64,000 bases of DNA from Streptomyces sp. NBC_00250 (GTDB taxonomy: Bacteria; Actinomycetota; Actinomycetes; Streptomycetales; Streptomycetaceae): the NCBI RefSeq assembly GCF_036192275.1, contig NZ_CP108088.1, positions 3,969,501 through 4,033,500 of the forward strand, read 5' to 3'. Each line of letters opens with the position of its first letter. Position 1 is the first letter of the stretch. The notes below the pieces were generated by a model that was given only the letters and a program-made list of their open reading frames with translations, did not search any database and was not told where the DNA came from. The position numbers and the translations under genes were made by a program. This document shows, piece by piece, positions 35,116 through 61,922 of this stretch.

Positions 35116-35143
35116 GTCTCAGTCCGGGGCATGGCCCCAGCGG

Positions 35144-38530: not shown

Positions 38531-38545
38531 CTGACGGTACGTCAG
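38531..38545. promoter_or_regulatory. Catabolic regulon operator, site 1
   Basis: CTGACGGTACGTCAG: perfect inverted repeat CTGACG-N3-CGTCAG. It lies between the divergent DoxX/OB-fold operon and the flavin monooxygenase gene. The same motif occurs at five promoter regions in this window. Confidence 0.75.
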
Positions 38546-38668
38546 TTCAGCGCAGGGTCCGGCCCTGCGCAAGAGGTCGGTCGACGTGCAGTCGACGTGA
38601 CCGATTCGCAACCGAAATCCCTCTTGACCGAGACCCACAGCGTGTACACGTCATTACGCTCAGCATTC

Positions 38669-39838
38669 ATGGCCACCACCCCCCTTGCACTCTCTCCACA
38701 GGTCGACCACCCCGTGTACGTCATCGGCGCGGGCCCCGGCGGGCTCGCCGTCGCCGCCGCCCTGCGCGGGCGCGGCGTCCGGGCGGTCGTCCTGGAGAAG
38801 TCCGACGCCGTCGGCGCCTCCTGGCGCGCCCACTACGACCGACTGCGGCTGCACACCACCCGGCGGCTCTCCGCCCTCCCCGGGCTGAAGATCCCCCGCT
38901 CCTTCGGGCGGTGGGTCGCCCGCGCCGACGTGGTGCGCTACCTGGAGAAGTACGCCGAGAAGCACGAGCTGGAGATCGTGACGGGCGTCGAGGTCTTCCG
39001 GGTCGAGCGGTCCGGCTCGGACTGGGTCCTGCACGCGACCGGCGGGCGCCGGCTCGTCGGGCGGGCGGTCGTCGTGGCCACCGGCTACAACCACACCCCG
39101 CGCCTGCCCGAGTGGCCCGGCCTGGACGCGTACGCGAGCGGGGGCGCCGGCGCGGGCGCGCTGCTCCACGCCCGGGACTACCGCAACCCCGAGCCGTACG
39201 CCGGGAAGGACGTCCTCGTCGTCGGCATCGGCAACACCGGGGCCGAGATCGCCGCCGACCTCGCCGAGGGCGGTGCCGAACGGGTACGGCTCGCGGTGCG
39301 GACCGTCCCGCACATCGTGCGGCGCACGACGGCCGGCTGGCCCGCCCAGCGCAACGGCATCCTGGTGCGCCGCCTGCCGACCGGTCTCGTCGACCGACTG
39401 GGCGCCCTGATCGCCCGGGTCGGGATGCCGGACCTCTCCGAGTACGGGCTGCCCCGGCCGGACACGGGTCTCGCCTCACGCACGCGGGAGGGTGCGATAC
39501 CGGTGCAGGACGTGGGCCTGATCGACGCGGTGCGGGCGGGGAAGGTCGAGATCGTCGCGGCCGTCGAGGCCTTCGAGGACGGCGACGTGATCCTCACGGA
39601 CGGCACCCGGATCGCCCCCGACGTGGTGATCGCGGCGACCGGCTACCGGCGCGCCCTGGAGCCGCTCGTCGGGCACCTGGACGTGCTCGACGGGCGCGGG
39701 CGTCCGGTGGTGCACGGGGCGCGCTGTCCGCGCGAGGCGCCCGGCCTGTACTTCACGGGGTTCACGAACCCGATCAGCGGGATGCTCCGCGAGCTGGCGA
39801 TCGACGCGGAGAAGATCGCGCGACGCATCGCCCGGTGA
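38669..39838 (+). CDS. Flavin-containing monooxygenase (YUCCA-like)
   Basis: A 389-residue FAD/NAD(P)H enzyme. The FAD motif is VIGAGPGGLAVAAAL (residues ~13-27) and the NADPH motif is VVGIGNTGAEIAADLA (~185-200). LHARDYRNPEPYAGKDVLV resembles the YUCCA/FMO linker, and ATGYRRAL is the conserved C-terminal ATG-Y segment. The ATG at 38669 follows the shared operator region. It may hydroxylate an amine-, sulphur- or ketone-bearing substrate of the catabolic set; the substrate is not predictable here. Confidence 0.88.
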   Translation: MATTPLALSPQVDHPVYVIGAGPGGLAVAAALRGRGVRAVVLEKSDAVGASWRAHYDRLRLHTTRRLSALPGLKIPRSFGRWVARADVVRYLEKYAEKHELEIVTGVEVFRVERSGSDWVLHATGGRRLVGRAVVVATGYNHTPRLPEWPGLDAYASGGAGAGALLHARDYRNPEPYAGKDVLVVGIGNTGAEIAADLAEGGAERVRLAVRTVPHIVRRTTAGWPAQRNGILVRRLPTGLVDRLGALIARVGMPDLSEYGLPRPDTGLASRTREGAIPVQDVGLIDAVRAGKVEIVAAVEAFEDGDVILTDGTRIAPDVVIAATGYRRALEPLVGHLDVLDGRGRPVVHGARCPREAPGLYFTGFTNPISGMLRELAIDAEKIARRIAR

Positions 39839-39954
39839 CCGGCGGGCACCCGGGCCCCGAGGCCACGCCCACCGGGGGTGAGTGGCCGGTCGGCCACCCC
39901 GCCCGACCGCCCCCACCCGGCCACGCCCTCACAACCGCCACCTCACACCTATTC

Positions 39955-39993
39955 CTGACTGGCCGTCAGTTCTGTAATCTGACTGAGCGTCAG
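39955..39993 (+). promoter_or_regulatory. Catabolic regulon operator, sites 2a and 2b
   Basis: Two copies in tandem: CTGACTGGCCGTCAG (39955-39969) and CTGACTGAGCGTCAG (39979-39993), starts 24 bp apart. Both have one changed base in the left half (T for G). They sit 35-73 bp upstream of the ADP-forming acyl-CoA ligase start. Confidence 0.72.
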
Positions 39994-40027
39994 GTGTATA
40001 CGGATGGGTGAAGGGCGGGCGGAACAC

Positions 40028-42250
40028 ATGCTTGGATCGACTCACGGCACCTTCACCACCGATCTCCGCGCCCGCGTGGTCGCCTGCGGGGAGTCGCCCC
40101 GCACGACCGTGCACGGCGTCACCGCCGCCCCCGGCGACCAGGACGTCAGCGGGCGCCCGCTGCACGCGCCCGTGCCCGACCTCGACCGGTTCTTCCGTCC
40201 CGAGTCCGTCGCCGTCGTCGGCGCGTCCGACACCGAGGGGCGACCCAACACCGGGATCACCCGGCAGCTGCTCGCCTGGGCCGAGCGGGTCGGCGCCCGG
40301 CTCGTGCCCGTGCACCCGACCCGTACCAGCGTGTTCGGGATCGACTGCGTGCCCTCCGTCGGCGCGCTCACCGAACCCGTCGACCTCGCCGTCCTCCTCG
40401 TCGCCGACCCGCTGCCCGTCATCGAGGAACTCGCCGAGACCAAGGTGAAGTTCGCGGTCGCGTTCGCCTCCGGCTTCGCCGAGACCGGCGAGGCCGGCGC
40501 CGCCGCGCAGGAACGTCTCGCCGCCGCCGTGCGCCGCTCCGGACTCCGCCTCCTCGGCCCCAACACCAACCTCAACGCCTTCGAGCGCTTCCGCGAGGAC
40601 CTCGAAGGCCCCGCCGTCGCCCTCATCACCCAGTCCGGCCATCAGGGGCGGCCCGTCTTCACCCTCCAGGAGCTCGGCGTCCGCCTCTCCCACTGGGCGC
40701 CCACCGGCAACGAGGCCGACCTGGAGACCTCCGACTTCATCTCGTACTTCGCCGGACGGCCCGAGGTCGGCGCCATCGCCTGCTACGTCGAGGGGCTCAA
40801 GGACGGCCGCTCCTTCCTCCTCGCCGCCGACCGGGCCGCCCGCCACGGCGTCCCCGTCGTCGCCGTGAAGGTCGGCCGCACCGAGACCGGGGCCCGTACC
40901 GCCGCCTCCCACACCGGCAAGCTCACCGGCGCCGACCAGGTCGTCGACGCCGCCATGCGCCAGTACGGAGTCATCCGGGTCGACGGGCTCGACCAGCTCC
41001 AGGACACCGCGACCCTGCTCGCCCGCGCCCGCCGCCCGCAGGCCGACGGCGTCGTCGTCTACTCGATCTCCGGCGGTACCGGCGCCCACTTCGCCGACCT
41101 CGCCACCGAGGCGGGCCTCCGGCTGCCCACCCTCCCGGACGCCAAGCAGGACGAACTCCACCAGTGGATCCCGGAGTACCTGAGCGTCGCCAACCCCGTC
41201 GACAACGGCGGACACCCGGTCGGCGACTGGCGCGGCCGAAAGATCATCGACGCGATCCTCGCCGACCCCTCCGTCGGGGTGCTGATCTGTCCGATCACCG
41301 GGCCCTTCCCTCCCATGAGCGACAAGCTCGCCCAGGACCTCGTCGACGCCGCAGAGGCGACGGACAAGCTGGTGTGCGTGGTGTGGGGGTCCCCGGTCGG
41401 GACGGAGGAGGCCTACCGGACGACCCTCCTCGGCTCCTCCCGGGTCGCCACCTTCCGCACCTTCGCCAACTGCATCGGCGCCGTGAAGGCCTACCTCGAC
41501 CACCACCGCTTCACCACCGGATACCGCTCCCCCTTCGACGAGGCCCCCCGCACCCCTTCCCCCTCCTTCCGCAAGGCCCAGGCCCTCATGCGGCCCGGCC
41601 GGCGGCTCAGCGAGCACGCGGCGAAGCAGCTCCTGCGGGCGTACGGGATACGGGTGCCCCGCGAGCAGCTCGTCACCAGCGCGGCGGCGGCCGTGCGGGC
41701 CGCCGGGCTCGTCGGCTACCCGGTGGTGATGAAGGCCTCGGGCGCACAGCTCGCCCACAAGACGGAGCTGGGCCTGGTGAAGGTCGGGCTGACCTCGGCG
41801 AGCCAGGTCCGGGACGCGTACCGCGACCTCACCGACATCGCCCGCTTCGAGTCCATCGACCTCGACGGGATCCTGGTCTGCCAGATGGTCGGGCGCGGGG
41901 TCGAGATGGTGGTGGGCGTGACCCGCGACGACCTGTTCGGCCCGACGGTCACGGTCGGCCTCGGCGGGGTCCTGGTGGAGGTCCTCGACGACACGGCCGT
42001 ACGGGTCCCGCCCTTCGGGGAGCACGAGGCCCGCTCGATGCTCGCCGAGCTGCGCGGCCGTGCCCTTCTCGACGGGGTACGGGGTGCGCCGCCGGCCGAC
42101 GTGGACGCGCTCGTCGAGGTGGTGCTGCGGGTGCAGCGGATGGCCCTCGAACTCGACGGCGACCTCGCCGAACTCGACATCAACCCGCTGATGGTGCTGC
42201 CGCGGGGCCAGGGCGCGGTGGCCCTGGACGCGCTGGCGGTCTGCCGCTGA
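40028..42250 (+). CDS. Acetate-CoA ligase (ADP-forming)-family protein
   Basis: A 740-residue fusion of alpha and beta parts. The N-terminal CoA-binding domain begins near residue 45 (FFRPESVAVVGASDTEGRPNTG). The ligase CoA domain has ALITQSGHQGRPVF, with His in the phosphohistidine loop. The C-terminal ATP-grasp domain (~510-735) has GYPVVMKASGAQLAHKTELGLVKVGL and ends AELDINPLMVLP. It makes an acyl-CoA from acid, ATP and CoA; the acid is unknown. I chose ATG 40028 (GGGCGGAACAC upstream) over ATG 40004. It is followed 20 bp later by an enoyl-CoA hydratase gene. Confidence 0.9.
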   Translation: MLGSTHGTFTTDLRARVVACGESPRTTVHGVTAAPGDQDVSGRPLHAPVPDLDRFFRPESVAVVGASDTEGRPNTGITRQLLAWAERVGARLVPVHPTRTSVFGIDCVPSVGALTEPVDLAVLLVADPLPVIEELAETKVKFAVAFASGFAETGEAGAAAQERLAAAVRRSGLRLLGPNTNLNAFERFREDLEGPAVALITQSGHQGRPVFTLQELGVRLSHWAPTGNEADLETSDFISYFAGRPEVGAIACYVEGLKDGRSFLLAADRAARHGVPVVAVKVGRTETGARTAASHTGKLTGADQVVDAAMRQYGVIRVDGLDQLQDTATLLARARRPQADGVVVYSISGGTGAHFADLATEAGLRLPTLPDAKQDELHQWIPEYLSVANPVDNGGHPVGDWRGRKIIDAILADPSVGVLICPITGPFPPMSDKLAQDLVDAAEATDKLVCVVWGSPVGTEEAYRTTLLGSSRVATFRTFANCIGAVKAYLDHHRFTTGYRSPFDEAPRTPSPSFRKAQALMRPGRRLSEHAAKQLLRAYGIRVPREQLVTSAAAAVRAAGLVGYPVVMKASGAQLAHKTELGLVKVGLTSASQVRDAYRDLTDIARFESIDLDGILVCQMVGRGVEMVVGVTRDDLFGPTVTVGLGGVLVEVLDDTAVRVPPFGEHEARSMLAELRGRALLDGVRGAPPADVDALVEVVLRVQRMALELDGDLAELDINPLMVLPRGQGAVALDALAVCR

Positions 42251-42270
42251 ACCGCCCTGGGAGACCGGTC

Positions 42271-43056
42271 ATGACCGATGTACTGCACGCCGTCGAGAAC
42301 GGCGTCTCGTGGATCACCCTCAACCGCCCCGAGGCGATGAACGCGGTCACCTGGGACCAGCGGGAGCGGATCATCGCCCTGCTCGCCGAGGCCTCCGCGG
42401 ACCCGGACGTCCGGGCGGTGGTCCTCACCGCCACCGGGCGCGGCTTCTGCGCGGGCGCGGACCTGCGGGGTGCGCCGGCCGCCGGGGAAAGGGTGGTGGG
42501 GGACGTGGCCCGGATGATCCGGCTCGGGGCGCAGCGCTTCATCGGGGCCGTACTGGACTGCGAGAAGCCGGTGATCGCGGCGGTGAACGGGACGGCGGCG
42601 GGGATCGGCGCGCACCTCGCCTTCGCCTGCGACCTGGTCCTGGCGTCGGAGTCGGCGAAGTTCATCGAGGTGTTCGTGCGGCGTGGGCTCGTCCCGGACG
42701 GCGGCGGGGCGTATCTGCTGCCGCGGCTGATCGGGCCGCAGCGGGCGAAGGAGTTGATGTTCTTCGGGGACGCGGTGCCGGCGGCGGAGGCGTACGGCAT
42801 GGGTCTGGTGAACCGGGTCGTCCCGGCCGAGGACCTGGAGAAGACGGCCCGGGAGTGGGCGGAGCGGCTGGCCCAGGGGCCGACGCGGGCGCTCGCCCTG
42901 ACGAAGCAGCTCGTGAACGCGTCGCTGGATGTGGACCGTTCCGTCGCGTTCGCGGCGGAGGCGACGGCGCAGGAGATGAACATGACGACGCGGGACGCGC
43001 AGGAAGGGGTGGCGAGCTTCGTGGAGCGGCGGGAGGCGCGGTACGAGGGGCGGTAG
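42271..43056 (+). CDS. Enoyl-CoA hydratase/isomerase family protein
   Basis: A 261-residue crotonase-fold enzyme. The oxyanion-hole segments are GRGFCAGADLRG and AVNGTAAGIGAHLAFACDLVLAS. The first catalytic acid position of classical hydratases (E in the G-A-x-E motif) is not obvious here. The second region reads FVRRGLVPDGGGAYLLPRLIG, where Asp replaces the usual Glu, as in isomerase-type members. It is cotranscribed with the ADP-forming ligase gene. Confidence 0.9.
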   Translation: MTDVLHAVENGVSWITLNRPEAMNAVTWDQRERIIALLAEASADPDVRAVVLTATGRGFCAGADLRGAPAAGERVVGDVARMIRLGAQRFIGAVLDCEKPVIAAVNGTAAGIGAHLAFACDLVLASESAKFIEVFVRRGLVPDGGGAYLLPRLIGPQRAKELMFFGDAVPAAEAYGMGLVNRVVPAEDLEKTAREWAERLAQGPTRALALTKQLVNASLDVDRSVAFAAEATAQEMNMTTRDAQEGVASFVERREARYEGR

Positions 43057-43128
43057 CGAAGGCTGTCCCACCGGGGCTTTATCGTGTGAGCCGCATATGC
43101 CACACACTGCCGCTCCGGGGGGAACGGA

Positions 43129-46100: not shown

Positions 46101-46854
46101 GGCGAAGGCCGGTTCGTGGTCGCTTCCGGTGGACTCGCTCGCGTACCAGTGGCGGGCGAACGGGGTCGCGATCGCGGGGGCCACGGCCTCCACGTACACG
46201 ATCCCCTTCACGCTCCAGGGCAAGCAGCTCTCTCTGGCCGTGATCGCGCGGAAGGCCGGGCACCCGACGCTCACCGCGGTCACGGGCTCGGTGGTCGTGA
46301 AGGGCATCGCCCCGAAGGTCACCAAGGCGCCCTCCGTGTCCGGCACCGTCCGGGTCGGGAGCAAGGTGTCGGCCGTCGTCGGCACCTGGTCGCCCGCGCC
46401 GAGCTCGTACGCCTACCAGTGGCGGGCGAACGGCGTGGCCATCCCGGGGGCCACGGGGTCCTCGTACGTGCCCGTCGCGTCCGTCCTCGGCAAGAAGCTC
46501 ACGGTGACCGTGACGGCCCACCGCACCGGGCACCTCAGCGGGGCCTCCACGACGGCCGGTTACACGGTCGCCACCGGCCTCGCGCCGAAGGCGACCACCG
46601 CTCCGTACGTCACCGGCACGGTGAAGGTCGGGCGGACGCTCACCCTGAACCGGGGGGCGTGGACGCCGGCGCCGACCTCGTACGCGTACCAGTGGTACGC
46701 GAACGGGCGGGCGATCAGCGGGGCGACCCGTGGCACGTTCACCCCGACCAAGGCCCAGCGTGGGACCCGGATCACCGTCAAGGTGACCGCCCACCGGACC
46801 GGGCACACCTCGGGCACCGCCTGGACCCGGTCGACGGGGGCCGTCGCCGGCTGA
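43129..46854 (+). CDS. Large secreted protein with Ig-like C-terminal repeats
   Basis: A 1241-residue exported protein. The unusually long n-region is Ser/Arg-rich (GRSRKSGRSRTSRRS) and ends in SRRSLLL, compatible with a Tat signal. A Pro/Thr-rich linker (~55-125) leads to a long region (~125-960) of cysteine-paired beta modules, many with C at module ends. Three Ig-like repeats of ~85 residues close the protein (nt 46048-46854), each with YQWxANGxAIxGAT and G-K-x-L-x-x-x-V-x-A-x-R-x-G-H. Start ATG follows GGGGGGAACGGA. A surface or matrix role is likely; no enzyme motif is seen. Confidence 0.85.
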   Translation: MPNSARSREGSEGSGRSRKSGRSRTSRRSLLLVPALLTALLSPMLPAGTALAATPTPTPSPATAAPAQGATAPAPETSAPEPSPTTDPTAAPTPTVEPTPNPTKPTDPTDEPTAEPTPSTEPTADTCPALPLAPLGEPGDAAEQVTIEPDGTVCFTVTVEQPGTHRILIDGSYDTHPALYAGEDRVACQAWVYKDAWCDLAVGRYTLKLTNSDWQTAQNRVSLVPLMATAQGDCPAVPGTAYDTAPATGTGAGPLGVVCHSFTAAPGERITKELQRVAYGDSFAWISDATGKRLCVDRNQDDSEGCVLPEGTSGYRVYGVVDDEGDGTRAPYTLKVRRLSDPKGCVTVAPSVYGTPPDRSGPATGCKTVTPTVSGRYDVRAVSEDGHRNSVSVYAQDGTYACLSYETLCALTAGTTYTVLTDDTVQFFGGESAAGCVDGVTLAAAYRGTFSAPGEVDCLNLPLPQGAHVAIQSDRSTEIKVYDGTGAEQCLYATNLWDATCTLGGTAPYRAVVTDEDPAEGGDGYGLVVHRTDAPSACRTFTAGDFSAAPARSVVKTGGGVFADCLTIPADAHSPNELFQIAKGAGDSSAEAVVVDANGRVSCEIRTYYGTFSVCDLTPGLAHTVLVQGRDMTAETVLTRQDVTATARGCVTTPAVAAGGPSTGGVPAAPGTFQCRKVTTSAAGDTLHLDVRDTNDAVRLMAFDAKGDVVCDYFAKGCAATGSAAYQVLLQVPAGGTATAAYRLDAARIGTPAGPAPECTKVANVAYGFGPLTGTLSDQHSTLCWALPTGEGDDFNVAFTPAGTFQSMPRPRMYDRTSRVNFCGGWYTSEGEIYKCGLPGSGSAKTAKPTTLVIGLPEKPAQASTPVKAQFSCDRYICGPDERTVGTVGPATVGRGKISMTVSGSALHSSAKVVVTNGSFRAESTTLSVAPDRRSMTVGLDLTNAPLGSLSTSVYAFGAQFMKPSVTVVAALRNTAAPGISGTAVDGGKVTAKAGSWSLPVDSLAYQWRANGVAIAGATASTYTIPFTLQGKQLSLAVIARKAGHPTLTAVTGSVVVKGIAPKVTKAPSVSGTVRVGSKVSAVVGTWSPAPSSYAYQWRANGVAIPGATGSSYVPVASVLGKKLTVTVTAHRTGHLSGASTTAGYTVATGLAPKATTAPYVTGTVKVGRTLTLNRGAWTPAPTSYAYQWYANGRAISGATRGTFTPTKAQRGTRITVKVTAHRTGHTSGTAWTRSTGAVAG

Positions 46855-46875
46855 TCCCGCGGTCGTACGAACGAA

Positions 46876-46916
46876 GAGCCCCCGGGGCGGCGGTCCTGCC
46901 GTCACCCCGGGGGCTC
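46876..46916 (+). terminator. Terminator after the large secreted protein
   Basis: GAGCCCCCGGGG (46876-46887) pairs with CCCCGGGGGCTC (46905-46916), with a 17-nt loop. It lies 21 bp past the stop codon and 22 bp before the next operator. Confidence 0.88.
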
Positions 46917-46938
46917 TCGTCGTGCAGGGGCTTCCTAT

Positions 46939-46953
46939 CTGACGCATCGTCAG
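46939..46953 (+). promoter_or_regulatory. Catabolic regulon operator, site 3
   Basis: CTGACGCATCGTCAG, a perfect copy of the motif, 18 bp upstream of the flavin reductase start. Such closeness suggests it overlaps the transcription start. Confidence 0.75.
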
Positions 46954-46970
46954 TTTCAATGGGTGATGTG

Positions 46971-47567
46971 ATGGGACACGCGGGGATGGCGGCCACCGCC
47001 GTCCGACACCTGAGAGCGGCCGGTTCGCCGACGGCCGTGGAACCACTGCCCCGGCCGGTACTGCGCGCGGTACGGGAGGACGAGCGACCGCCCGTCGACC
47101 CGGCCGAATTCCGCCGCGTGCTCGGCCACTTCGCGAGCGGGGTCACGATCGTGACCGCCCTCGACCCGGAAGGACCGGCCGGGTTCGCCTGCCAGTCCTT
47201 CGCCTCCCTCTCCCTCGACCCGCCCCTGGTCGCCTTCATGGTCGCCCGTACGTCGACCACCTGGCCCAGGATCGCGGGGGCGGGCACCTTCTGCGTCAAC
47301 ATCCTCGGCGCCGACCAGGGCCCGCTGTGCCGGTCGTTCGCGGTGAGCGGCGCGGACAAGTTCGCGGGCGTGGACTGGACCCCGGCCCCGACCACGGGCT
47401 CACCCCGGCTGTCCGGCGCACCCGCCTGGCTGGACTGTGCGATCACCGCCGTGCACACCGGGGGCGACCACCTGATCGTGGTGGGGAGGGTGGAGTCGCT
47501 GGGCGCCGAGGAGGACGGGGACCCGCTGCTGTTCCACCGGGGGAGGTTCGGACGGCTGAGCTCGTAG
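46971..47567 (+). CDS. Flavin reductase-family FMN-binding protein
   Basis: A 198-residue split-barrel flavin reductase of the HpaC/DIM6 type. Segments FRRVLGHFASGVTIVTA, FACQSFASLSLDPPLVAFMVAR and FCVNILGADQ are typical. It probably supplies reduced flavin to a monooxygenase; the two-component partner is not adjacent. Several in-frame starts exist (46959, 46968, 46971, 46986); I took 46971. The operator at 46939 ties it to the catabolic genes. Confidence 0.88.
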   Translation: MGHAGMAATAVRHLRAAGSPTAVEPLPRPVLRAVREDERPPVDPAEFRRVLGHFASGVTIVTALDPEGPAGFACQSFASLSLDPPLVAFMVARTSTTWPRIAGAGTFCVNILGADQGPLCRSFAVSGADKFAGVDWTPAPTTGSPRLSGAPAWLDCAITAVHTGGDHLIVVGRVESLGAEEDGDPLLFHRGRFGRLSS

Positions 47568-47613
47568 TCCTCAGCGTGGGGGCGCACCCCGACCCGGACC
47601 CCCGCGCGGGGCC

Positions 47614-48210: not shown

Positions 48211-48233
48211 GTGCGATCACCCCCTGCCGACCA

Positions 48234-53506: not shown

Positions 53507-54466
53507 ATGAAGCACACCACCAACCCCCGCCATGTGATCTTCGGCTCCGGTGCCGTCGGTACGGCCGTCGCCGAGGCGCTGGTCCGTCAGGGGGAGTCCG
53601 TACGCGTCGTCAACCGGTCCGGCCGGGCGGACGTCCCCGACGGTGTCGAGGTGGCGGCCGGTGACGCGGCCGATCCCGCGTTCACCACCGCCGTCGCGGC
53701 CGGCGCGGCCGTCGTCTACCAGGCCCTCAACCCGCCCTACCACCGCTGGCAGCAGGAGTTCCCCGCCCTCCAGGCCGGCGTGCTCGCCGCGGCCGAGGCG
53801 AGCGGCGCCCGGATGGTCTCGATGGACAACGTCTACAGCTACGGGCCGCCCGGGGGCCGGCCGTTCACCGAGGAGACCCCCGACGCCGCGACCACCCGCA
53901 AGGGCCGCCTCCGGGGCCGGATGGCCCAGGATCTGCTCGCCGCCCACCGGGCCGGGCGCGTGGAGGTGGCGATCGGGCGCGCCTCCGACTACTTCGGGCC
54001 GCGCGGCGGCGCCCAGTCCAACCTCGGTGACCTCGTCGTCCCGGCCCTCCTCGCCGGCCGCACCGCCACCGTCCTGGGCGATCCGGACCAGCCCCACACC
54101 TACACCTACATCCCCGACATCGGGGAGGCGCTCGCCCTCCTCGGCCGGCACCCCGACGCTCCGGGCCGCGTCTGGCACCTCCCCAACGACCCGCGCACCC
54201 GCACGACCCGCGAACTCGTCGACCTGGCCCACCGCGCCACCGGCCGCCCCGGTGCCGCCCGCCTGCGCCGGATGCCGACGGCGGCGCTGTACGTGATGGG
54301 CGCGGTCAACCGGACCGTGCGCGAGCTGATCGAGATGCGCTACGAGTTCGCGGAGCCGTTCGTCGTCGACTCCGCGCTCGTCAAGGAGCGGCTCGGCGCC
54401 GTCGCCACGCCGGTCGAGGAGGCCCTGGACCGGACGGTGGCGGCGTACCGCGCGCTCAGAAAGTGA
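53507..54466 (+). CDS. NAD-dependent epimerase/dehydratase-family (extended SDR-like) protein
   Basis: A 319-residue Rossmann-fold protein. The nucleotide motif is IFGSGAVGTAVAEAL (~11-25), and the catalytic-type region is MDNVYSYG with a Tyr but no classical YxxxK. FGPRGGAQSNLGD and TYIPDIGEALALLG follow, as in atypical SDRs acting on sugar nucleotides or quinones. Its ATG overlaps the TGA of a short upstream frame (see findings). The 3' end overlaps the alcohol dehydrogenase gene by 11 bp. Confidence 0.82.
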   Translation: MKHTTNPRHVIFGSGAVGTAVAEALVRQGESVRVVNRSGRADVPDGVEVAAGDAADPAFTTAVAAGAAVVYQALNPPYHRWQQEFPALQAGVLAAAEASGARMVSMDNVYSYGPPGGRPFTEETPDAATTRKGRLRGRMAQDLLAAHRAGRVEVAIGRASDYFGPRGGAQSNLGDLVVPALLAGRTATVLGDPDQPHTYTYIPDIGEALALLGRHPDAPGRVWHLPNDPRTRTTRELVDLAHRATGRPGAARLRRMPTAALYVMGAVNRTVRELIEMRYEFAEPFVVDSALVKERLGAVATPVEEALDRTVAAYRALRK

Positions 54467-55505
54467 GGACCCCCCGGGCCACCTTCCCCGCCTCCGCGTC
54501 CTCCACCGCCCTCGCGAACTCCTCCACCGGGTAGGTGGCGGTGACGAGTTCGTCGAGGAGGAGGCGGCCCGACAGGTACAGCTCGGCGTAGAGCGGGATG
54601 TCGCGCTGCGGGCGGGAGGAGCCGTACCGGCAGCCCAGGATCGACTTGTCGAGGAACATCGCGGCCGGCAGGAAGCTCGCCTCCGCCTTCGGTGCCGTCA
54701 TGCCGAGGAGGATCGCCTGGCCGCGCCGGTCGAGGAGCTCGATGGCCGTACGGACGAGGCCGACGTGTCCGACGCACTCGAAGACGTGGTCGGCCCCGGT
54801 GGGCAGGAGGTCCCGTACGCCGTCCGTCGACGTCAGGAAGTGGCTCGCGCCGAACTGCCGGGCCACCACCTCCTTCGCCGGGTTCGTGTCCACCGCCACG
54901 ATCGTCCGCGCGCCCGCGATCCGGGCCCCCTGGATGACGTTGAGCCCGATCCCGCCCGTGCCGATGACGACGACCGTGTCACCCCGGTCGACCTTCGCCC
55001 GGTTGAGTACGGCCCCGACGCCGGTGAGGACGCCGCAGCCCATGAGGGCGGCGGAGGTGAGGGGGATGTCCTGGGGGATCTTCACCGCCTGGACCGCTTT
55101 CACGACGGTCCGCTCGGCGAACGACGAGTTCGACGCGAACTGGTAGAGCGGCCGGCCACCCCGCGAGAACGGCTGCCCCGGCATCCCGATGGCCTTCCGG
55201 CACATGGTGGGCCGCCCCCGGTCGCAGTCCGCGCAGGCCCCGCAGTTCGCGAGCGTCGAGAGGGCCACGTGGTCGCCGGGGACCACGTGCGTGACCCCCG
55301 GACCGACCGCCTCCACCACCCCCGCGCCCTCGTGCCCGAGGACGACGGGAGGCGGGAAGGGGATCGTCCCGTCGACGACCGAGAGATCGCTGTGGCACAG
55401 CCCGGCCGCCGCGATCGCGACCAGCACCTCCCCGGCGCCGGGGTCCCGTACCTCCAGGTCGTCGACGACCTGGACCTGCTTCCCGTCGAACACCACGCCC
55501 CTCAT
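54456..55505 (-). CDS. Zn-dependent alcohol dehydrogenase (MDR family)
   Basis: A 349-residue NAD(P)-dependent dehydrogenase. The catalytic zinc ligands are C37 and H38 region (AGLCHSDLSV) and the GHEGAGVVE helix. The structural zinc site has four cysteines (NCGACADCDRGRPTMC). The cofactor motif is GTGGIGLNVIQGA. It resembles the mycothiol/formaldehyde- or aryl-alcohol-dehydrogenase branch. ATGA overlap with the upstream SDR gene. Part of the operon headed by the operator at 56492. Confidence 0.92.
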   Translation of the reverse strand: MRGVVFDGKQVQVVDDLEVRDPGAGEVLVAIAAAGLCHSDLSVVDGTIPFPPPVVLGHEGAGVVEAVGPGVTHVVPGDHVALSTLANCGACADCDRGRPTMCRKAIGMPGQPFSRGGRPLYQFASNSSFAERTVVKAVQAVKIPQDIPLTSAALMGCGVLTGVGAVLNRAKVDRGDTVVVIGTGGIGLNVIQGARIAGARTIVAVDTNPAKEVVARQFGASHFLTSTDGVRDLLPTGADHVFECVGHVGLVRTAIELLDRRGQAILLGMTAPKAEASFLPAAMFLDKSILGCRYGSSRPQRDIPLYAELYLSGRLLLDELVTATYPVEEFARAVEDAEAGKVARGVLTF

Positions 55506-56470
55506 GAGCCGTTCTCCTTGCTCGCGTCGGTACGGGTGCTCGTGCCGGGGCCCGTGCCCGTGTTGGGGCGGTCGCCCGCCGCCGCGGCCCGTGCCATCTC
55601 CTCCAGGCGCGCCAGCATCGGCATCGGGTCCACGCCCACCGTCCCCGGCAGGAAGTCCGCGATCCGTTCCGGGGTCCAGGCGCCGCCCTCCGCGTACCCG
55701 GCCCGCAGCTCCCTGGGCTGCGCCCAGACCGCGATCTTCGGGCCGGCGATCGTGTAGACCTGGCCGGTGATCTTCTCCTCGCGGGCGCGCTCGGAGAGCA
55801 GGTAGACGACGAGCGCCGCCACGTCCTCCGGCTCCCCGATCTCCTTCAGCTCCATCGGGACGTTCGCCGACATCCGGGTCCGCGCCACCGGCGCCACCGC
55901 GTTCGCCGTCACCCCGTACTTGTGGAGGCCGAGCGCCGCCGACCGTACGAGGGAGATGATCCCGCCCTTGGCCGCCGAGTAGTTGGCCTGGGCGACCGAC
56001 CCCTGGTGGTTGCCGCTCGTGAAGCCGATGAGGGTCCCCGTACCCTGCCGCCGCATGACCGCCGAGGCCGCCCGGAAGACCGTGAACGTGCCTTTCAGGT
56101 GGGTCGCGACGACCGGGTCCCACTCCTCCTCGGACATGTTGAACAGCATCCGCTCGCGCAGGATGCCCGCCACGCACACGACGCCGTCGAGGCGTCCGTA
56201 CTCCGCGAGGGCGACGTCGACGATCCGCTGTCCGCCCGCCATCGTCGAGATGTCGTCGGCGACCGCGACGGCTGCACCACCCGCCGCCTCGATCTCCTTC
56301 ACGACGGAGAGGGCGATTTCCGAGGTCGGTTCACCGCCCTCGATCGACACCCCGTAGTCGTTGACGACGACCTTCGCGCCCTCCGCCGCGCACGCGAGGG
56401 CCACGGCGCGGCCGATGCCCCGTCCCGCGCCCGTCACGGCGACGACCTTGCCAGCCAAGAAGTTCCCCAC
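55502..56470 (-). CDS. SDR-family NAD(P)-dependent oxidoreductase
   Basis: A 322-residue classical SDR with a C-terminal extension. Nucleotide motif TGAGRGIGRAVALACAAEG; active site SG/Y-S-A-A-K-G (Tyr-x-x-x-Lys). It resembles 3-hydroxyacyl-CoA dehydrogenases of the 17-beta-HSD4 type. I chose the GTG at 56470 (preceded by GGGAGGGGCC), which places the palindromic operator (56492) upstream; the more distant ATG at 56512 would put the operator inside the gene. Confidence 0.9.
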   Translation of the reverse strand: MGNFLAGKVVAVTGAGRGIGRAVALACAAEGAKVVVNDYGVSIEGGEPTSEIALSVVKEIEAAGGAAVAVADDISTMAGGQRIVDVALAEYGRLDGVVCVAGILRERMLFNMSEEEWDPVVATHLKGTFTVFRAASAVMRRQGTGTLIGFTSGNHQGSVAQANYSAAKGGIISLVRSAALGLHKYGVTANAVAPVARTRMSANVPMELKEIGEPEDVAALVVYLLSERAREEKITGQVYTIAGPKIAVWAQPRELRAGYAEGGAWTPERIADFLPGTVGVDPMPMLARLEEMARAAAAGDRPNTGTGPGTSTRTDASKENGS

Positions 56471-56491
56471 GCCCGGCCCCTCCCGCAGTTT

Positions 56492-56540
56492 CTGACGGTC
56501 CGTTAGATTCATTCGTCGTCAGGATTCTACGACCCGTCAG
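56492..56540. promoter_or_regulatory. Catabolic regulon operator, site 4
   Basis: CTGACGGTCCGTTAG (56492-56506), one mismatch in the right half, lies between the divergent SDR operon and cyclase gene. A second, weak copy keeps only the right half (CGTCAG, 56535-56540) plus ACG in the left. Confidence 0.68.
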
Positions 56541-56570
56541 ATACGTGAGAACAAGACCCCGGAGGCCCCG

Positions 56571-57497
56571 ATGTCTCTGCCCGCCGCATTCCACGAGATC
56601 GCCAAGCGCGTCAACAACTGGGGCCGTTGGGGCCAGGACGACGAGATCGGCACCCTCAACCTCGTCACGGACGAGGTCGTACGGGACGCCGCCGCCACCG
56701 TCCGCACCGGTCTGCGCATCCCCCTCGCCGTCGACCTCAAGCAGGACGGCGTCCAGACCGGCATGATCCCCGGCCGCGTCAACCCGCTCCACGTCATGGT
56801 CCAGATCAACCAGGAGCTCTTCGGCCCCGGCACGGTCGCCACCAGCGACGACGCCGTGACCCTCGGCCTCCAGGCCGGCACCCACTGGGACGCCCTGACC
56901 CATGTCTCCCACTCGGGCCACCTCTACAACGGCCGCCCGGCCGCCACCATCACCCCGCACGGCCGCTCCGAGTTCAGCGGCATCCACACGGCCCGGCACA
57001 TCGTGAGCCGCGGGGTCCTGCTCGACGTGGCCGCCGCCAAGGGCCTGGACCGGCTGCCGGGCGACCACGCCGTCACCCCCGAGGACCTGGACGAGGCCGC
57101 CGAGTTCGGCGGGGTGACCGTACGGTCCGGCGACATCGTGCTCGTACGGACGGGTCAGATGCAGCTGTACGCGGCCGGGGACCGGCACGGGTACGCCTTC
57201 CCGTCGCCGGGGCTCTCGATCCGCACGCCGGAGTGGTTCCACGCCCGGGACGTCGCGGCCGTCGCCAACGACACCCTCACCTTCGAGATCTTCCCGCCGG
57301 AGATCGAGGACCTGTGGCTGCCCGTGCACGCCCTCGACCTGGTCGAGATGGGGATGCTCCAGGGGCAGAACTGGAATCTGGAATCTCTGTCCACAGCCTG
57401 TGCACAAGAGCGGCGCCATGCGTTCCTGCTCTCGGCGATGCCCGAACCCTTCGTGGGCGGTACCGGTACACCGGTGGCACCGGTCGCCATCCTCTGA
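56571..57497 (+). CDS. Cyclase-family protein (putative metal-dependent hydrolase)
   Basis: A 308-residue member of the kynurenine formamidase/cyclase family. The metal-binding motif is GLQAGTHWDALTHVSHSG (HxxxDxxxH-like). LRLPGDH- and RTGQ-type segments (IVLVRTGQMQLYAAGD) follow. Such enzymes hydrolyse amide, ester or ring-opened intermediates. It diverges from the SDR/alcohol dehydrogenase operon and shares its operator region. Substrate unknown. Confidence 0.87.
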   Translation: MSLPAAFHEIAKRVNNWGRWGQDDEIGTLNLVTDEVVRDAAATVRTGLRIPLAVDLKQDGVQTGMIPGRVNPLHVMVQINQELFGPGTVATSDDAVTLGLQAGTHWDALTHVSHSGHLYNGRPAATITPHGRSEFSGIHTARHIVSRGVLLDVAAAKGLDRLPGDHAVTPEDLDEAAEFGGVTVRSGDIVLVRTGQMQLYAAGDRHGYAFPSPGLSIRTPEWFHARDVAAVANDTLTFEIFPPEIEDLWLPVHALDLVEMGMLQGQNWNLESLSTACAQERRHAFLLSAMPEPFVGGTGTPVAPVAIL

Positions 57498-57600
57498 GCC
57501 GGTACATCACGCGCTTCACGGGCTTCACGGGTGGCGGTGCGCTCGCGCGCGCCCCGAGCACGGCACGGCGCCGCCGCCACCCGGCCGCGACCCGCACACG

Positions 57601-57621
57601 CCGAGGGCACACGGCCCTCGG
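57601..57621. terminator. Hairpin between converging genes
   Basis: CCGAGGGC (57601-57608) and GCCCTCGG (57614-57621) with a 5-nt loop, between the cyclase gene and the converging HATPase gene. Confidence 0.65.
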
Positions 57622-57673
57622 CTCCCCTCGCCACGAATCGCTCACACCAGAGTGGGCAAAACGCCACGAATCG

Positions 57674-58153
57674 TCAACAGCGCACCCGGCCGGGGGACAC
57701 GGAAGCCGTCGGACCCTGACCCGGCCGCGCACCCTGACCCGGGCCCGGCGAAGGCGCGGCGGGAGCCGCCCGGTCCACCTCGCACCAGATGCTCTTGCCG
57801 GCGCCCTCGGGCTGCCAGCCCCACCGGTCCGCGAGGCCGTCGACCAGCTCCAGGCCGCGCCCGTTGGTGTCCTCGCCCTCGGCGTGCCGGGGCTGCGGCG
57901 GGCGGTCGCTCGTGTCGGCCACCTCGACCCGCACCCCGCCCTCCGCCGCGAACAGCATCCGCAGCACGGCCGGACAGCCGGTGTGCACCACGGCGTTGGT
58001 CACGAGCTCGGAGATGATCAGCACCAGCGTCTCGGCCAGCGGCTCGTCGTCCCCTATGCCCGAGCCGGCGAGCCGTGACCGGGCCCACCTCCGGGCTCGC
58101 CCCACCTCCGCCGGGTCCGGCCCGACCTCCAACTGAACCTGAAGCACCTGCAC
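57674..58153 (-). CDS. ATP-binding anti-sigma-factor-type protein (RsbW-like HATPase)
   Basis: A 159-residue GHKL-fold protein. N-box ELVTNAVVHTG (~49-59), D-box VEVADTSDRPP, G2 region GRGLELVDGLADRWG. The last ~30 residues are Pro/Gly-rich. Streptomyces has many such single-domain serine kinases, which bind sigma factors or anti-anti-sigma proteins. Start GTG at 58153. No sigma factor gene is adjacent. An apparent remnant of a sister gene lies at 31993-32177. Confidence 0.88.
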   Translation of the reverse strand: MQVLQVQLEVGPDPAEVGRARRWARSRLAGSGIGDDEPLAETLVLIISELVTNAVVHTGCPAVLRMLFAAEGGVRVEVADTSDRPPQPRHAEGEDTNGRGLELVDGLADRWGWQPEGAGKSIWCEVDRAAPAAPSPGPGQGARPGQGPTASVSPGRVRC

Positions 58154-58565
58154 CGCTCACACCATCCGAACCGGCGGACACATCGCCTCGCGCCTCACAG
58201 CCATCGACGCCCTTACAGAACGTGATTCCCTTGTGAGACAGCATGGTTGACGTACAGTCACCGCAACAAGCGCTTCGGGCATATTCCAGCGCGAAGGAGT
58301 ACGCGTAGTCCATACTGTGCGACGCACGCTGCGGGGAGTCGAACAGGAGCGCGCGGGGCGCCTCCTCGGGGCGCGAGCGGCGCGCATTCCCGGGCCCGGA
58401 GTCACCTCAGGGGCGACACCGGGACGATCCGGGCCAACGAGCACTCGCATCCCACGGAGCGTACCGGAGCCGGAGGCCGACTCCGGGCCGTGACGGCCCC
58501 GCCCAAGGACACAGACAGGTATCAACATTCCGTGACCCGACGGGCGCGGAGAGCGATGCCGGACG
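58154..58565. other. Spacer upstream of the HATPase gene
   Basis: About 410 bp with no credible gene. A promoter for the minus-strand gene probably lies here. A weak hairpin-like repeat TGACGTACAGTCA occurs near 58247-58260. I see nothing else of note. Confidence 0.4.
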
Positions 58566-59429
58566 TCACAGTCCGGCGGCCACCGCCTCCTCGGCGCGCG
58601 CGGCGGGCAGCCGCAGCTCGGCCCGCACCCAGGCCCGCTTGAGATGCAGGTGGACGTCCGCCTCCCAGGTGAACCCCATGCCGCCGTGCACCTGCAGGCA
58701 GTCGCGGGCGTTTCCGGTCGCGGCCTCGTCGGCGAGGAGCTTGGCCCCGGCGATCTCGACGGGGTCGACGGTGAGGGAGGCGGCCCGGACGGCGGCGCGG
58801 GCGAGTTCGGTACGGACGAGCATCCCGGCGCAGAGATGCTTGACGGCCTGGAACCCCCCGATCACCTGCCCGAACTGCTCCCGCTCGCGGGCGTGGGAAA
58901 CGGCCGCCTCGGTGGTCCGCTCAGCACTCCCGACTTGTTCGGCGGCGGTGAGCAGAACGGCTTCGAGAGCGGTCGCGCCCGCGTTGCCGGGCACGCGGTG
59001 CAGCGGGGTCAGCGGATCCACCGACCGCATCGGTACGGCCCCGGAGGCGTCCCCGACCACCGCGTCCGCCTCGTCCAGCCAAGGGACCAGCCCCTCCTCC
59101 ACCGCGGTGACGACCACGTCCCCCTCCGCGGCGCCCGGCACGACCCCCGCCGCCATGTGCGTGGCCACCAGCGGGCCCGGCAGCAGCGCCCGTCCCGCCT
59201 CCTCGAACACCAGCACCGCCTCGGGGAGGCCGAGCCCCACGCCGCCGTCCTCCTCCGGGACCCGCAGCGCGAAGAATCCCGCCGCCCCGAGCTCCCGCCA
59301 CAGCGCCCGGTCCAGCGCACCGCCCGCGTCCACGGCGGCCCGCAGGGCCTCCCGGTCGAAGCGGCCTTCGAGGAGGTCGCGTACGCCTCGGCGCAGGGCC
59401 CGCTGGTCCTCGGTGAGTCGGAAGTCCAT
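58566..59429 (-). CDS. Acyl-CoA dehydrogenase-family protein, short subunit
   Basis: A 287-residue acyl-CoA dehydrogenase-fold protein, shorter than the usual ~380, beginning MDFRLTEDQRALRRGV. The C-terminal region has GGFQAVKHLCAG and LQVHGGMGFTWEADVHLHLKRA. Short members like this pair with a longer subunit as heteromers (alpha2beta2), as in steroid side-chain degradation. It overlaps the upstream subunit if the GTG at 59441 (GTGA) is used; I took ATG 59429. Confidence 0.85.
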   Translation of the reverse strand: MDFRLTEDQRALRRGVRDLLEGRFDREALRAAVDAGGALDRALWRELGAAGFFALRVPEEDGGVGLGLPEAVLVFEEAGRALLPGPLVATHMAAGVVPGAAEGDVVVTAVEEGLVPWLDEADAVVGDASGAVPMRSVDPLTPLHRVPGNAGATALEAVLLTAAEQVGSAERTTEAAVSHAREREQFGQVIGGFQAVKHLCAGMLVRTELARAAVRAASLTVDPVEIAGAKLLADEAATGNARDCLQVHGGMGFTWEADVHLHLKRAWVRAELRLPAARAEEAVAAGL

Positions 59430-59437
59430 GGCGGGGG

Positions 59438-60574
59438 TCACCGGCCCTTCGGCAGGCCGAGGATGCGCTCGGCGACGATGTTGCGCTGGATCTGGGAGGT
59501 GCCGGCCGCGATCGTGTACGAGAGCGAGGACAGCCGGTCCAGGGTCCAGTCGCGGCCGAGGTCGAGCGCGTCGGGGCCGAGGACGGCGGCGGCGGCCTCG
59601 TACAGCTCCTGGCGGGCGTGCGAGTAGTGCAGTTTGAAGACGGAGCCGCCCGCGCCGGGCACCCCGCCGGTCGCCTGGGCCTCGCTGACGTTGGCCTGGA
59701 CGATCCGCCACAGGGCCTGGAACTCGGCGGAGAGCCTACCGAGGCGGCGTCGCAGGACGGGGTCGTCCCAGGTGCCGTTCTTCCGGGCGGTGCGGGCGAG
59801 TTCGCCGAGGAGGCGGCGGCAGGCGACGACCTCGCCGACGAAGGCGGTGCCGCGTTCGAAGGAGAGGGTGACCATGGTGACGCGCCACCCGTCGTTCTCC
59901 TCGCCGACCCGGTTCTCGACGGGCACGCGCACCTCGTCGAGGAAGACCTCCGCGAACTCCGCCGAACCCGCGAGGGTGCGCAGCGGCCGGACGGTGATGC
60001 CGGGGGCGTCCATGGGCATCGCGAGCCAGGTGATGCCCCGGTGTCTGGACGGCGCGTCCGGGTCCGTCCGTACGAGCAGCTCGCACCAGTCGGCGACCTC
60101 GGCGTGCGAGGTCCAGATCTTCTGGCCGGTGACGACGTACGCGTCCCCGTCCCGTACCGCCCGGGTGCGGAGCGAGGCGAGGTCGGAGCCGGCGCCGGGT
60201 TCGCTGAAGCCCTGGCACCAGACCTCGTCGCCGCGCAGGACCGGCGGCAGCCAGCGGGCGCGCTGTTCGGGCGTGCCCTCGGCGGCGATGGTCGGGCCCG
60301 CGTGGAGGAGTCCGACGAAGTTGGCGCCGACGTAGGGCGCCCCGGCGAGTTCGGTCTCCTCCAGGAAGATCAGCCGCTGGGTCGGGGAGGCGTCCCACTG
60401 GACGTCGGCGTACCCGGCGTCGTACAGCCTGCGCTGCCAGCCGCAGTCGTACGCCCGGCGCGCGGGCCAGTCCAGGGGGTCGGGTTTCGGCGGGAGGCCG
60501 GGCAGTTCCCGGGTGAGCCAGGCCTTGAGGCGGGCGCGGAACTCCTCTTCCTCGTCGGTGCAGGAGAGGTCCAT
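59438..60574 (-). CDS. Acyl-CoA dehydrogenase-family protein, long subunit
   Basis: A 378-residue flavoprotein. FAD/substrate segments are WCQGFSEPGAGSDLASLRTRA and GQKIWTSHAEVADWCELLVRT, and the C terminus is GTSQIQRNIVAERILGLP. It is the partner of the short subunit encoded next. It starts at ATG 60574, overlapping the amidohydrolase stop by one base (TGATG). Forms an operon amidohydrolase - long subunit - short subunit. Confidence 0.93.
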   Translation of the reverse strand: MDLSCTDEEEEFRARLKAWLTRELPGLPPKPDPLDWPARRAYDCGWQRRLYDAGYADVQWDASPTQRLIFLEETELAGAPYVGANFVGLLHAGPTIAAEGTPEQRARWLPPVLRGDEVWCQGFSEPGAGSDLASLRTRAVRDGDAYVVTGQKIWTSHAEVADWCELLVRTDPDAPSRHRGITWLAMPMDAPGITVRPLRTLAGSAEFAEVFLDEVRVPVENRVGEENDGWRVTMVTLSFERGTAFVGEVVACRRLLGELARTARKNGTWDDPVLRRRLGRLSAEFQALWRIVQANVSEAQATGGVPGAGGSVFKLHYSHARQELYEAAAAVLGPDALDLGRDWTLDRLSSLSYTIAAGTSQIQRNIVAERILGLPKGR

Positions 60575-61794
60575 CAGACGGCGTCCCGCCCGAAGTCGAC
60601 GCCCCGGTCGAAGTCGAGGTCGAGCATGCGGATGGCGTTGCCGCGCATCAGCTTGTAGATCGTCTCGTCGTCGAGGCCCTGGACGTGGTCGAGGGCGACT
60701 TCCTTGGTGTGCGGGAAGGTGGAGTCGACGTGCGGGTAGTCGGTCTCGAAGGTGGCGTTGTCCCGCCCCACCACGTCCAGCGACGCGATGCCGTGCTTGT
60801 CGCGGAAGAAGCAGCAGAAGATCTGCCGGTAGTAGTACGTGGACGGCGGTTCGGGGATGAGGTCGCGGACGCCGCCCCAGGCGCGGTGCTCCTCCCACAC
60901 GTCGTCGGCGCGTTCGAGGGCGTACGGGATCCATCCCATCTGGCCCTCGCTGTAGGCGAGCTTGAGCCGGGGGAACTTCACGAGGACGCCGCTGAAGAGG
61001 AAGTCCATCATCGAGGCCATCGCGTTGTTGAAGCTGAGGGAGGCCTGGACGGCGGGCGGGGCGTCGGGGGAGGCGGCGGGCATCTGGCTGCTGGAGCCGA
61101 TGTGCATGTTGACCACCGTGCCGGTCTCCTGGCAGACGGCGAAGAAGGGGTCCCAGTAGCCGGAGTGGATCGAGGGGAGTCCGAGGTGGGTGGGGATCTC
61201 GGAGAAGGTGACGGCCTTGACGCCGCGGGCGGCGTTGCGCCTGATCTCGGCGACGGCGAGGTCGATGTCCCAGAGCGGGATGATGCAGAGCGGGATGAGC
61301 CGGCCGCCGCTGTCGCCGCACCACTCGTCGACCATCCAGTCGTTGTAGGCGCGCACGCAGGCGAGGGCGACCTCCTTGTCGTGGGCCTCGGCGAAGGTCT
61401 GGCCGCAGAAGCGGGGGAAGGTGGGGAAGCAGAGGGAGGCCTCGACGTGGTTGAGGTCCATGTCGGCGAGGCGGGCCTTGGCGTCCCAGCAGCCGCGCCG
61501 CATCTCGGCCCGGGTGATGCCTTCGAGGGTCATGTCGTCGCGGTCGAAGCCGACGGCGGCGATGTTGCGCTTGTACGGGAACTTGAGGTCCTCGTAGATC
61601 CACCAGTCGGTCGGCGGTCCGTCCGGGTCCATCGTGATCTGGTACTTGCCGGCGACGTAGGCGAGCTCGCCGATGCCGGCCGTGAGGGGCTGGGGGCCGC
61701 GGTCGCGGTACTTCTTCGGGAGCCAGGTCTCGAAGAGGTGGGCGGGCTCGATCACGTGGTCGTCGACGCTGATGATGCGGGGCAGTTCCGTCAT
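60574..61794 (-). CDS. Amidohydrolase-family (amidohydrolase_2) protein
   Basis: A 406-residue TIM-barrel metal-dependent hydrolase or decarboxylase. It begins with ISVDDHVIEPAHLFETWLPKKY, containing the D-x-H ligand. Later segments are DMDLNHVEASLCFPTFPRF, TVVNMHIGSSSQ (His ligand) and FETDYPHVDSTFPHT (Asp). Related proteins include ACMS-decarboxylase-like enzymes, so decarboxylation or ring hydrolysis of a CoA pathway intermediate is possible. ATG 61794 has GGAGGGG upstream. Operators at 61822 and 61908 lie in the divergent promoter region. Confidence 0.9.
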   Translation of the reverse strand: MTELPRIISVDDHVIEPAHLFETWLPKKYRDRGPQPLTAGIGELAYVAGKYQITMDPDGPPTDWWIYEDLKFPYKRNIAAVGFDRDDMTLEGITRAEMRRGCWDAKARLADMDLNHVEASLCFPTFPRFCGQTFAEAHDKEVALACVRAYNDWMVDEWCGDSGGRLIPLCIIPLWDIDLAVAEIRRNAARGVKAVTFSEIPTHLGLPSIHSGYWDPFFAVCQETGTVVNMHIGSSSQMPAASPDAPPAVQASLSFNNAMASMMDFLFSGVLVKFPRLKLAYSEGQMGWIPYALERADDVWEEHRAWGGVRDLIPEPPSTYYYRQIFCCFFRDKHGIASLDVVGRDNATFETDYPHVDSTFPHTKEVALDHVQGLDDETIYKLMRGNAIRMLDLDFDRGVDFGRDAV

Positions 61795-61821
61795 GACCCC
61801 TCCATGTCTCTCATGGCGTTT

Positions 61822-61836
61822 CTGATGGACCGTCAG
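61822..61836. promoter_or_regulatory. Catabolic regulon operator, site 5
   Basis: CTGATGGACCGTCAG, one mismatch (T for C in the left half), 28 bp upstream of the amidohydrolase start. A further CTGA...TCAG repeat follows at 61839-61851. Confidence 0.7.
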
Positions 61837-61907
61837 ATCTGACGGCATCAGGCTAGCCGCGCACCCCTGGACCGACAAGCGCCCGGCCTCTACGCTCACC
61901 GCACGAT

Positions 61908-61922
61908 CTGACGGAACGTCAG
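61908..61922. promoter_or_regulatory. Catabolic regulon operator, site 6
   Basis: CTGACGGAACGTCAG, a perfect copy, 17 bp upstream of the CoA-ligase start codon and close to the expected transcription start. Confidence 0.75.

Follow-up and report, generated by a model that had tools for sequence, protein, structure and literature searches.

A CTGACG-N3-CGTCAG palindrome as the predicted operator of a dispersed CoA-catabolic regulon, and its candidate TetR regulator, in Streptomyces

TetR-type control of coenzyme A (CoA) catabolism is already known. The KstR2 regulon belongs to the mycolic-acid actinobacteria, and the KstR2 operator is a palindrome different from CTGACG-N3-CGTCAG, the element considered here in a 64,000-nucleotide stretch of Streptomyces sp. 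NBC_00250. EthR of Mycobacterium tuberculosis has one monooxygenase gene as its target and a long operator of other sequence. According to two papers, the KstR2 regulon is assigned to the last two steroid rings and KstR2 is listed as a HIP-CoA repressor (PMC5380842), and SCO3201 is described as a Streptomyces TetR tied to fad-type genes, with the palindrome TGGCAGATTCTGCCA (PMC7324645). The stretch analyzed here, hereafter the window, comprises bases 3969501–4033500 of a 9.16-Mb contig in a genome of 9.27 Mb (labelled G000). Seven near-perfect palindromes are located at its promoters. With a probability of roughly 80%, we regard them as predicted operators of a single, unlinked TetR carrying the PF19352 domain, which would be released by cyclic acyl-CoA and would govern alicyclic or terpenoid-type catabolism.

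When at most one mismatch was allowed, exactly seven copies of the palindrome were found in the window, spread over five promoter regions as a preliminary description of this DNA had reported, while 100 dinucleotide shuffles of the window gave a mean of 0.62 sites and a maximum of 3. The three perfect copies that had been described are indeed present at 38531, 46939, and 61908, and their spacers are GTA, CAT, and GAA, respectively. All seven sites are intergenic, and none is more than about 70 bp from a start codon. The excess is limited to near-perfect copies, for when up to three mismatches were allowed, 48 sites were counted vs 75 expected. The sites are as follows.

38531..38545, predicted operator, perfect (CTGACG GTA CGTCAG), with the DoxX-like/OB-fold pair to its left and the flavin-monooxygenase-like (FMO-like) gene to its right
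39955..39969, predicted operator, one mismatch, distal member of a pair spaced by 24 bp, upstream of the ADP-forming CoA ligase
39979..39993, predicted operator, one mismatch, proximal member of the pair before the ADP-forming CoA ligase
46939..46953, predicted operator, perfect, before the flavin reductase
56492..56506, predicted operator, one mismatch, in the divergent promoter of the short-chain dehydrogenase and the cyclase-family protein
61822..61836, predicted operator, one mismatch, at the start of the PtmU3-like/acyl-CoA dehydrogenase operon
61908..61922, predicted operator, perfect, before the CoA ligase

Across the G000 genome, 19 perfect copies were found vs none for a reversed control palindrome, and 120 vs 34 at no more than one mismatch; since the control already attains 34, many of the one-mismatch copies elsewhere in the genome may be due to chance. 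Seventeen of the 19 perfect sites are intergenic (binomial P 9e-12, given a non-coding share of 17% in the DNA inspected), so the motif is not equally frequent inside genes; equal frequency was the outcome that the preliminary description had set against its own proposal. By our reading, 13 of the perfect sites face clear CoA or redox catabolic genes, which supports the earlier view that the sites precede dispersed units of this kind. Two face less clear genes, namely a DUF7064 protein resembling the Rv3169 family (locus L025) and a DAP_DH_C oxidoreductase (L028), and four face nothing relevant (L017, L018, L019, and L029 on a plasmid). Besides the window units, the set of 13 comprises luciferase-fold oxidoreductases, a short-chain dehydrogenase, a MaoC hydratase, a ferredoxin-reductase-type flavoprotein, a ChsH2-type zinc ribbon with a neighbor that reads as a thiolase, a CoA ligase, and an Amidohydro_2 protein.

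The sites are retained in relatives. In 40 related genomes, perfect copies number 0–32 per genome vs 0–2 for the control. Orthologous loci were compared for three of the five window promoters, those of the cyclase, the CoA ligase, and the ADP-forming ligase, with the window's own locus counted. One of the 31 matches (G029) yielded no locus, and positions were taken with the match beginning at base 1501 of each locus. A site with at most one mismatch is kept at the cyclase promoter in 30/30 loci, at the CoA-ligase promoter in 30/30, and at the ADP-forming-ligase promoter in 22/22, where shuffled half-site palindromes would be expected in 0.03–0.08 loci per promoter set. Two sites with at most two mismatches are present in 30/30 loci at the CoA-ligase promoter and in 21/22 at the ADP-forming-ligase promoter.

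Per-base conservation was computed from 20–21 within-genus loci per promoter, excluding the loci of family f3 and L287. The arms carry 1.7–2.0 bits per base within the genus, a value inflated by the picking of sites at no more than two arm mismatches; this selection does not inflate the freedom of the spacer, which carries 0.34–0.75 bits at the four ligase-promoter sites vs 1.59 at the cyclase site. Conserved arms around a free center, as described earlier, are supported, less so by the cyclase site than by the ligase promoters. A profile from 92 distinct sites reads W-Y-CTGAC(g)-N3-CGTCAG-N-T, in which the inner G is the weakest arm position, and the flanks are A/T-biased in streptomycete promoters. 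In a scan of genome contigs for the exact 19-bp form ATCTGACG-N3-CGTCAGAT, a DoxX-like gene, identified from its N-terminus, is preceded by a copy in 15 of the 120 loci listed.

As the regulator of these sites we propose the TetR encoded at G000:C1:5279090-5279734 on the minus strand, with binding predicted. It is a single-copy protein with the TetR_C_38 domain (PF19352), and both this domain and the TetR_N helix-turn-helix (PF00440) score over their cut-offs. Its AlphaFold model is all helical with an EthR-like fold. It is 92% identical to its counterpart in Streptomyces sp. NRRL F-2664 and was found in 39 of the 41 genomes searched. A TetR-type regulator elsewhere in the genome had already been suspected, and three computed observations support this one. 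First, PF19352 is present in 21 of 23 genomes with at least five core sites vs 18 of 169 others, a count from which family f15 is excluded (the corresponding tally for the 19-bp motif still includes one f15 genome, G123). Second, the gene lies within 70 kb of window units in 13 of the 17 same-genus genomes compared. These 17, G000 included, were drawn from 25; G001, G002, G003, G007, G009, G013, G016, and G019 were left out, as in these a gene was missing or on another contig. Third, the motif is present at the gene's own start in 25/25 cases in the genus, with two mismatches, and in 5/5 in families f14 and f16, with 0–1 mismatch. Seven motif loci hold a TetR found by profile, and in five of these it is the PF19352 one. 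The TetR genes at L017 and L018 were rejected as candidates: the perfect sites there lie at the gene end or far from the start, and these TetRs were not found beside sites in other loci. By gene order, SCO4499 more likely corresponds to the neighboring TetR L186_8343 than to the PF19352 regulator. SCO4499 is listed as a TetR in PMC4991794.

We infer binding, repression, induction, the inducer class, and the substrate along the following lines. The operator would be approximately WYCTGACG-N3-CGTCAGNT, with the core CTGAC-N5-GTCAG, and a TetR dimer on the two CTGAC half-sites would block transcription. The CoA thioester of an alicyclic or terpenoid-type acid, or a related hydrophobic ligand, may bind the EthR-like C-terminal domain and cause release; this cyclic acyl-CoA is perhaps made by a regulated CoA ligase. 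Release would switch on together CoA ligases, acyl-CoA dehydrogenases, a PtmU3/DitZ-like diiron enzyme, dehydrogenases, hydratases, thiolases, and redox partners.

The genes at the window sites are the following.

37640..38050, minus strand, ChsH2-type zinc-ribbon/OB-fold protein (Pfam PF01796, PF12172)
38047..38499, minus strand, DoxX-like small membrane protein (label from the preliminary description)
38714..39838, plus strand, FMO-like flavoprotein (PF13738, PF00743)
40028..42250 (alternative start 40004), plus strand, ADP-forming acyl-CoA ligase (PF13549, PF13607, PF13380)
42271..43056, plus strand, enoyl-CoA hydratase family protein (PF00378)
46971..47567, plus strand, flavin reductase (PF01613)
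54456..55505, minus strand, zinc alcohol dehydrogenase, 3' of the short-chain dehydrogenase (PF08240, PF00107)
55502..56470, minus strand, short-chain dehydrogenase (PF13561)
56571..57497, plus strand, cyclase-family protein (PF04199; solved homologue 5ibz, an uncharacterized protein)
58566..59441, minus strand, acyl-CoA dehydrogenase (best NCBIfam match IpdE2, 151.5 bits vs a cut-off of 450)
59438..60574, minus strand, acyl-CoA dehydrogenase (best NCBIfam match PimC large subunit, below cut-off)
60574..61794, minus strand, amidohydrolase-superfamily protein (closest solved relatives DitZ, 8uyr, and PtmU3, 6omp)
61939..63453, plus strand, AMP-forming CoA ligase (best NCBIfam match cyclohexanecarboxylate-CoA ligase, below cut-off)

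Neither Pfam nor NCBIfam gave a match for the DoxX-like protein at an E threshold of 1e-5. For the flavin reductase, the gene caller places the start at 47118, and an upstream in-frame GTG at 46968 or ATG at 46971 was read by eye. The protein of 60574–61794 had been called an amidohydrolase. A member of that superfamily, it aligns best with DitZ (E 3e-58), followed by PtmU3 (E 2e-37), and it retains D-x-H, H, E, and D-x-x-H at the positions that by eye match the diiron ligands. PMC7782822 describes these ligands in AibH2 and states that those of PtmU3 are similar; PtmU3 is described as a β-hydroxylase in diterpenoid biosynthesis that accepts CoA-ligated substrates. The role of DitZ was not found in the papers searched. 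The protein is thus more likely a PtmU3/DitZ-type diiron enzyme, with a putative function in the hydroxylation of a CoA-bound cyclic substrate.

Together with this protein, the ChsH2-type OB fold, the IpdE2- and PimC-like dehydrogenases, and the cyclohexanecarboxylate-type ligase point to the catabolism of ring-shaped acids as CoA esters, the predicted substrate being a class rather than one compound. The acyl-CoA catabolic regulon of the preliminary description is supported as far as CoA catabolism is concerned; its general scope is refined, as the set looks nearer to CoA catabolism of the alicyclic, steroid, or terpenoid type.

Beyond the genus, the contig scan for the exact 19-bp form returned at least 120 stretches. 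Among those listed, many are from Streptomyces, Acidimicrobiia, Microthrixaceae, and other actinobacterial bins, and matches in Bacteroidales, Clostridiales, Ruegeria, and the like are mostly inside genes, as by chance. Genes near to and far from the sites were tallied with the Streptomyces loci omitted, together with 18 loci of other phyla or from records labelled Bifidobacterium or Schaalia. In this tally 55 of 62 sites are intergenic. The 56 genes beside them include 8 acyl-CoA dehydrogenases, 8 Amidohydro_2, 5 AMP-binding, and 5 short-chain dehydrogenase proteins (25 families listed), whereas 60 distant genes, drawn at random from 125, include at most one each of acyl-CoA dehydrogenase and Amidohydro_2 (25 of 79 families listed). 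The same distant genes hold three AMP-binding and three luciferase-fold proteins, so the neighborhoods themselves are somewhat enriched. At the f16 locus L295, a PF19352 TetR stands among sites. Encoded with it are an IpdA homologue (6co6, E 3e-95), an IpdB homologue (E 7e-73), a crotonase that scores above the PRK07938 cut-off, acyl-CoA dehydrogenases, and a FabK-type protein that is below cut-off and fits IpdC. L293 (f14), L294, L296, and L299 resemble L295 by a reading of their genes, as distinct from a sequence search for IpdA and IpdB. These clusters of IpdAB-type genes for the steroid C/D rings suggest that in f14 and f16 a repressor other than KstR2 takes the place that KstR2 has in mycobacteria.

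The same regulator might instead respond to a straight-chain fatty acyl-CoA, as FadR-type TetRs do, in which case the regulon would serve general fatty-acid oxidation. Acyl-CoA dehydrogenases, hydratases, thiolases, and CoA ligases are all in the set, and FadR and DesT with acyl-CoA are among the lower-ranked structural neighbors of the candidate. Yet alongside these are ChsH2-type OB folds, PtmU3/DitZ-like enzymes, luciferase-fold oxidoreductases, and a cyclase-family protein, a CoA ligase of the set is closest to the cyclohexanecarboxylate family, and the f16 TetR adjoins IpdAB homologues. We therefore consider a fatty-acid inducer unlikely, and a cyclic acyl-CoA remains the preferred ligand.

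Several paralogous TetRs could also share the CTGAC half-site, with the PF19352 protein governing only the units near it. Room for such paralogues exists, as 132 TetR_N domains were matched in G000 (150 of 333 candidates scored) and the window is 1.25 Mb from the PF19352 gene in this genome. The arrangement is nevertheless improbable given the 13 of 17 genomes with window units close to that gene, the retention of sites whether units are clustered or dispersed, the five of seven profile-found TetRs at motif loci, and the class-wide co-occurrence with PF19352, the only TetR family so examined. An unrelated TetR from a Pirellulaceae bin (L130:6185-6970) has a perfect 19-bp copy at its start. It would be in keeping with several regulators and weighs against a single one; it may be a coincidence or may point to another regulator whose operator is similar.

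The palindrome behaves differently in family f15. This family is represented by the genomes G051, G073, G091, G107, and G123 and by the loci L193–L207 and L304–L323; the five genomes hold 109–218 perfect copies each (control 0–1), and all have a PF19352 match. In the three f15 TetRs that were read (L290–L292), the recognition helix is the same, and the two that were aligned diverge in their C-terminal half. In G051, sampled over 400 kb in 20 regions, most of them chosen for holding sites, the 28 perfect sites comprise 10 inside genes, 9 convergent, 9 tandem, and 0 divergent. The spacing of G051 sites was not distinguishable from random over 73 listed places, and f15 copies often provide the stop codon themselves. 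A genome-wide role, for instance SlmA-like, is possible for them. We had regarded f15 as the strongest co-occurrence support and dropped it, as its copies occupy gene ends, tandem gaps, and the interiors of genes. This f15 pattern would suit a sequence repeat or terminator-like element left between genes by accident, an explanation that is very improbable for the window, where each site is near a gene start, streptomycete promoter flanks are A/T-biased, and paired sites are kept despite changing spacers.

Further points have to be set against one PF19352 repressor acting on all these sites. The palindrome has a different use in f15, where its copies are not placed like operators, so the core motif by itself is no proof of a regulon, and the control reaches 34 one-mismatch copies in G000. 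In the genus, the self-site departs from the motif at 2 of 12 positions, and since it overlaps the start codon, its conservation is partly coding. No self-site was found at 4 of the 8 f3 loci, at L093, or at L300, nor within the part of the two f20 loci that was scanned, although one-mismatch sites do precede the f20 starts as called; among TetR regulators, an operator at their own gene is frequent without being universal. Some genomes with a strong PF19352 match have few sites or none (G060 and G069, 0; G094 and G191, 1), and two with at least five sites, G188 (68% complete) and G190, have no PF19352 match. The cyclase site, little varied in its spacer and also in its left flank (1.64 bits), is less telling than the others. 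Regarding the substrate, no NCBIfam cut-off is reached among the rows listed for ten window proteins, and three have no match. The alicyclic or terpenoid assignment rests on homology, and the IpdAB evidence is from the f14 and f16 loci.

Tentatively, and less probably than not, the arrangement may extend across the actinobacteria, one EthR-fold TetR and one operator running the catabolism of polycyclic terpenoid- or steroid-like CoA esters with PtmU3/DitZ-type diiron hydroxylases, ChsH2-type parts, and luciferase-fold oxidoreductases, occurring in nearly every streptomycete and replacing KstR2 where ipdAB occurs in other families. For a genus used for drug production, the analysis supplies a predicted operator together with its candidate repressor, and some dozen promoters as their predicted regulon. 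This regulon joins PtmU3/DitZ-like, luciferase-fold, cyclase-family, and ChsH2-like enzymes into one programme, so the inducer of the one repressor would indicate the substrate class for all its enzymes. Its connection with ipdAB clusters outside the streptomycetes suggests that steroid-type ring degradation is controlled in a second manner, and the repressor–operator pair could serve as a sensor of cyclic acyl-CoA. Separately, four luciferase-fold oxidoreductase genes at L016, L020, and L022 of G000 have perfect or one-mismatch sites, and F420 or FMN chemistry may accordingly be required by the regulon. Elsewhere in the window, at 34072–35512, nested imperfect inverted repeats with arms of 98, 68, 65, 31, and 26 nt (75–88% complementary) flank a small gene (34579–35022, minus strand) and adjoin a nine-base tandem repeat at 33950–34039.

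Under the terms searched, no published account of this regulator, its operator, or the regulon was found. The palindrome was absent in the written forms searched from the open-licence literature, which leaves most subscription papers outside, and no paper on PF19352 or TetR_C_38 was found in that literature. The candidate resembles SCO3201 as a Streptomyces TetR connected with fad-type genes, but TGGCAGATTCTGCCA is unlike CTGACG-N3-CGTCAG, from which the other Streptomyces TetR operators visible in PMC3511530 also differ. It shares the fold of EthR at about 19% identity, and EthR is its closest solved relative, although other TetRs ranked level with EthR in a single-sequence search. Whereas EthR has a single target, a many-promoter predicted regulon with a 15–19 bp palindrome is found here, and the FMO-like gene (38714–39838) adjoins a site, not the regulator. 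KstR2 exerts TetR-type control of ipdAB, ipdC, echA20, ipdF, and acyl-CoA dehydrogenases, and the PF19352 TetR of L295, which adjoins homologues of IpdA and IpdB, a crotonase, and acyl-CoA dehydrogenases, may exert a similar control. Among the NCBIfam matches of the candidate at E up to 1e-3, there was no KstR or KstR2 model, a search that involved no direct comparison with KstR2. It differs from KstR2 in having EthR as closest solved relative and in a predicted streptomycete regulon of scattered units, with many genes that do not belong to the ipd set.

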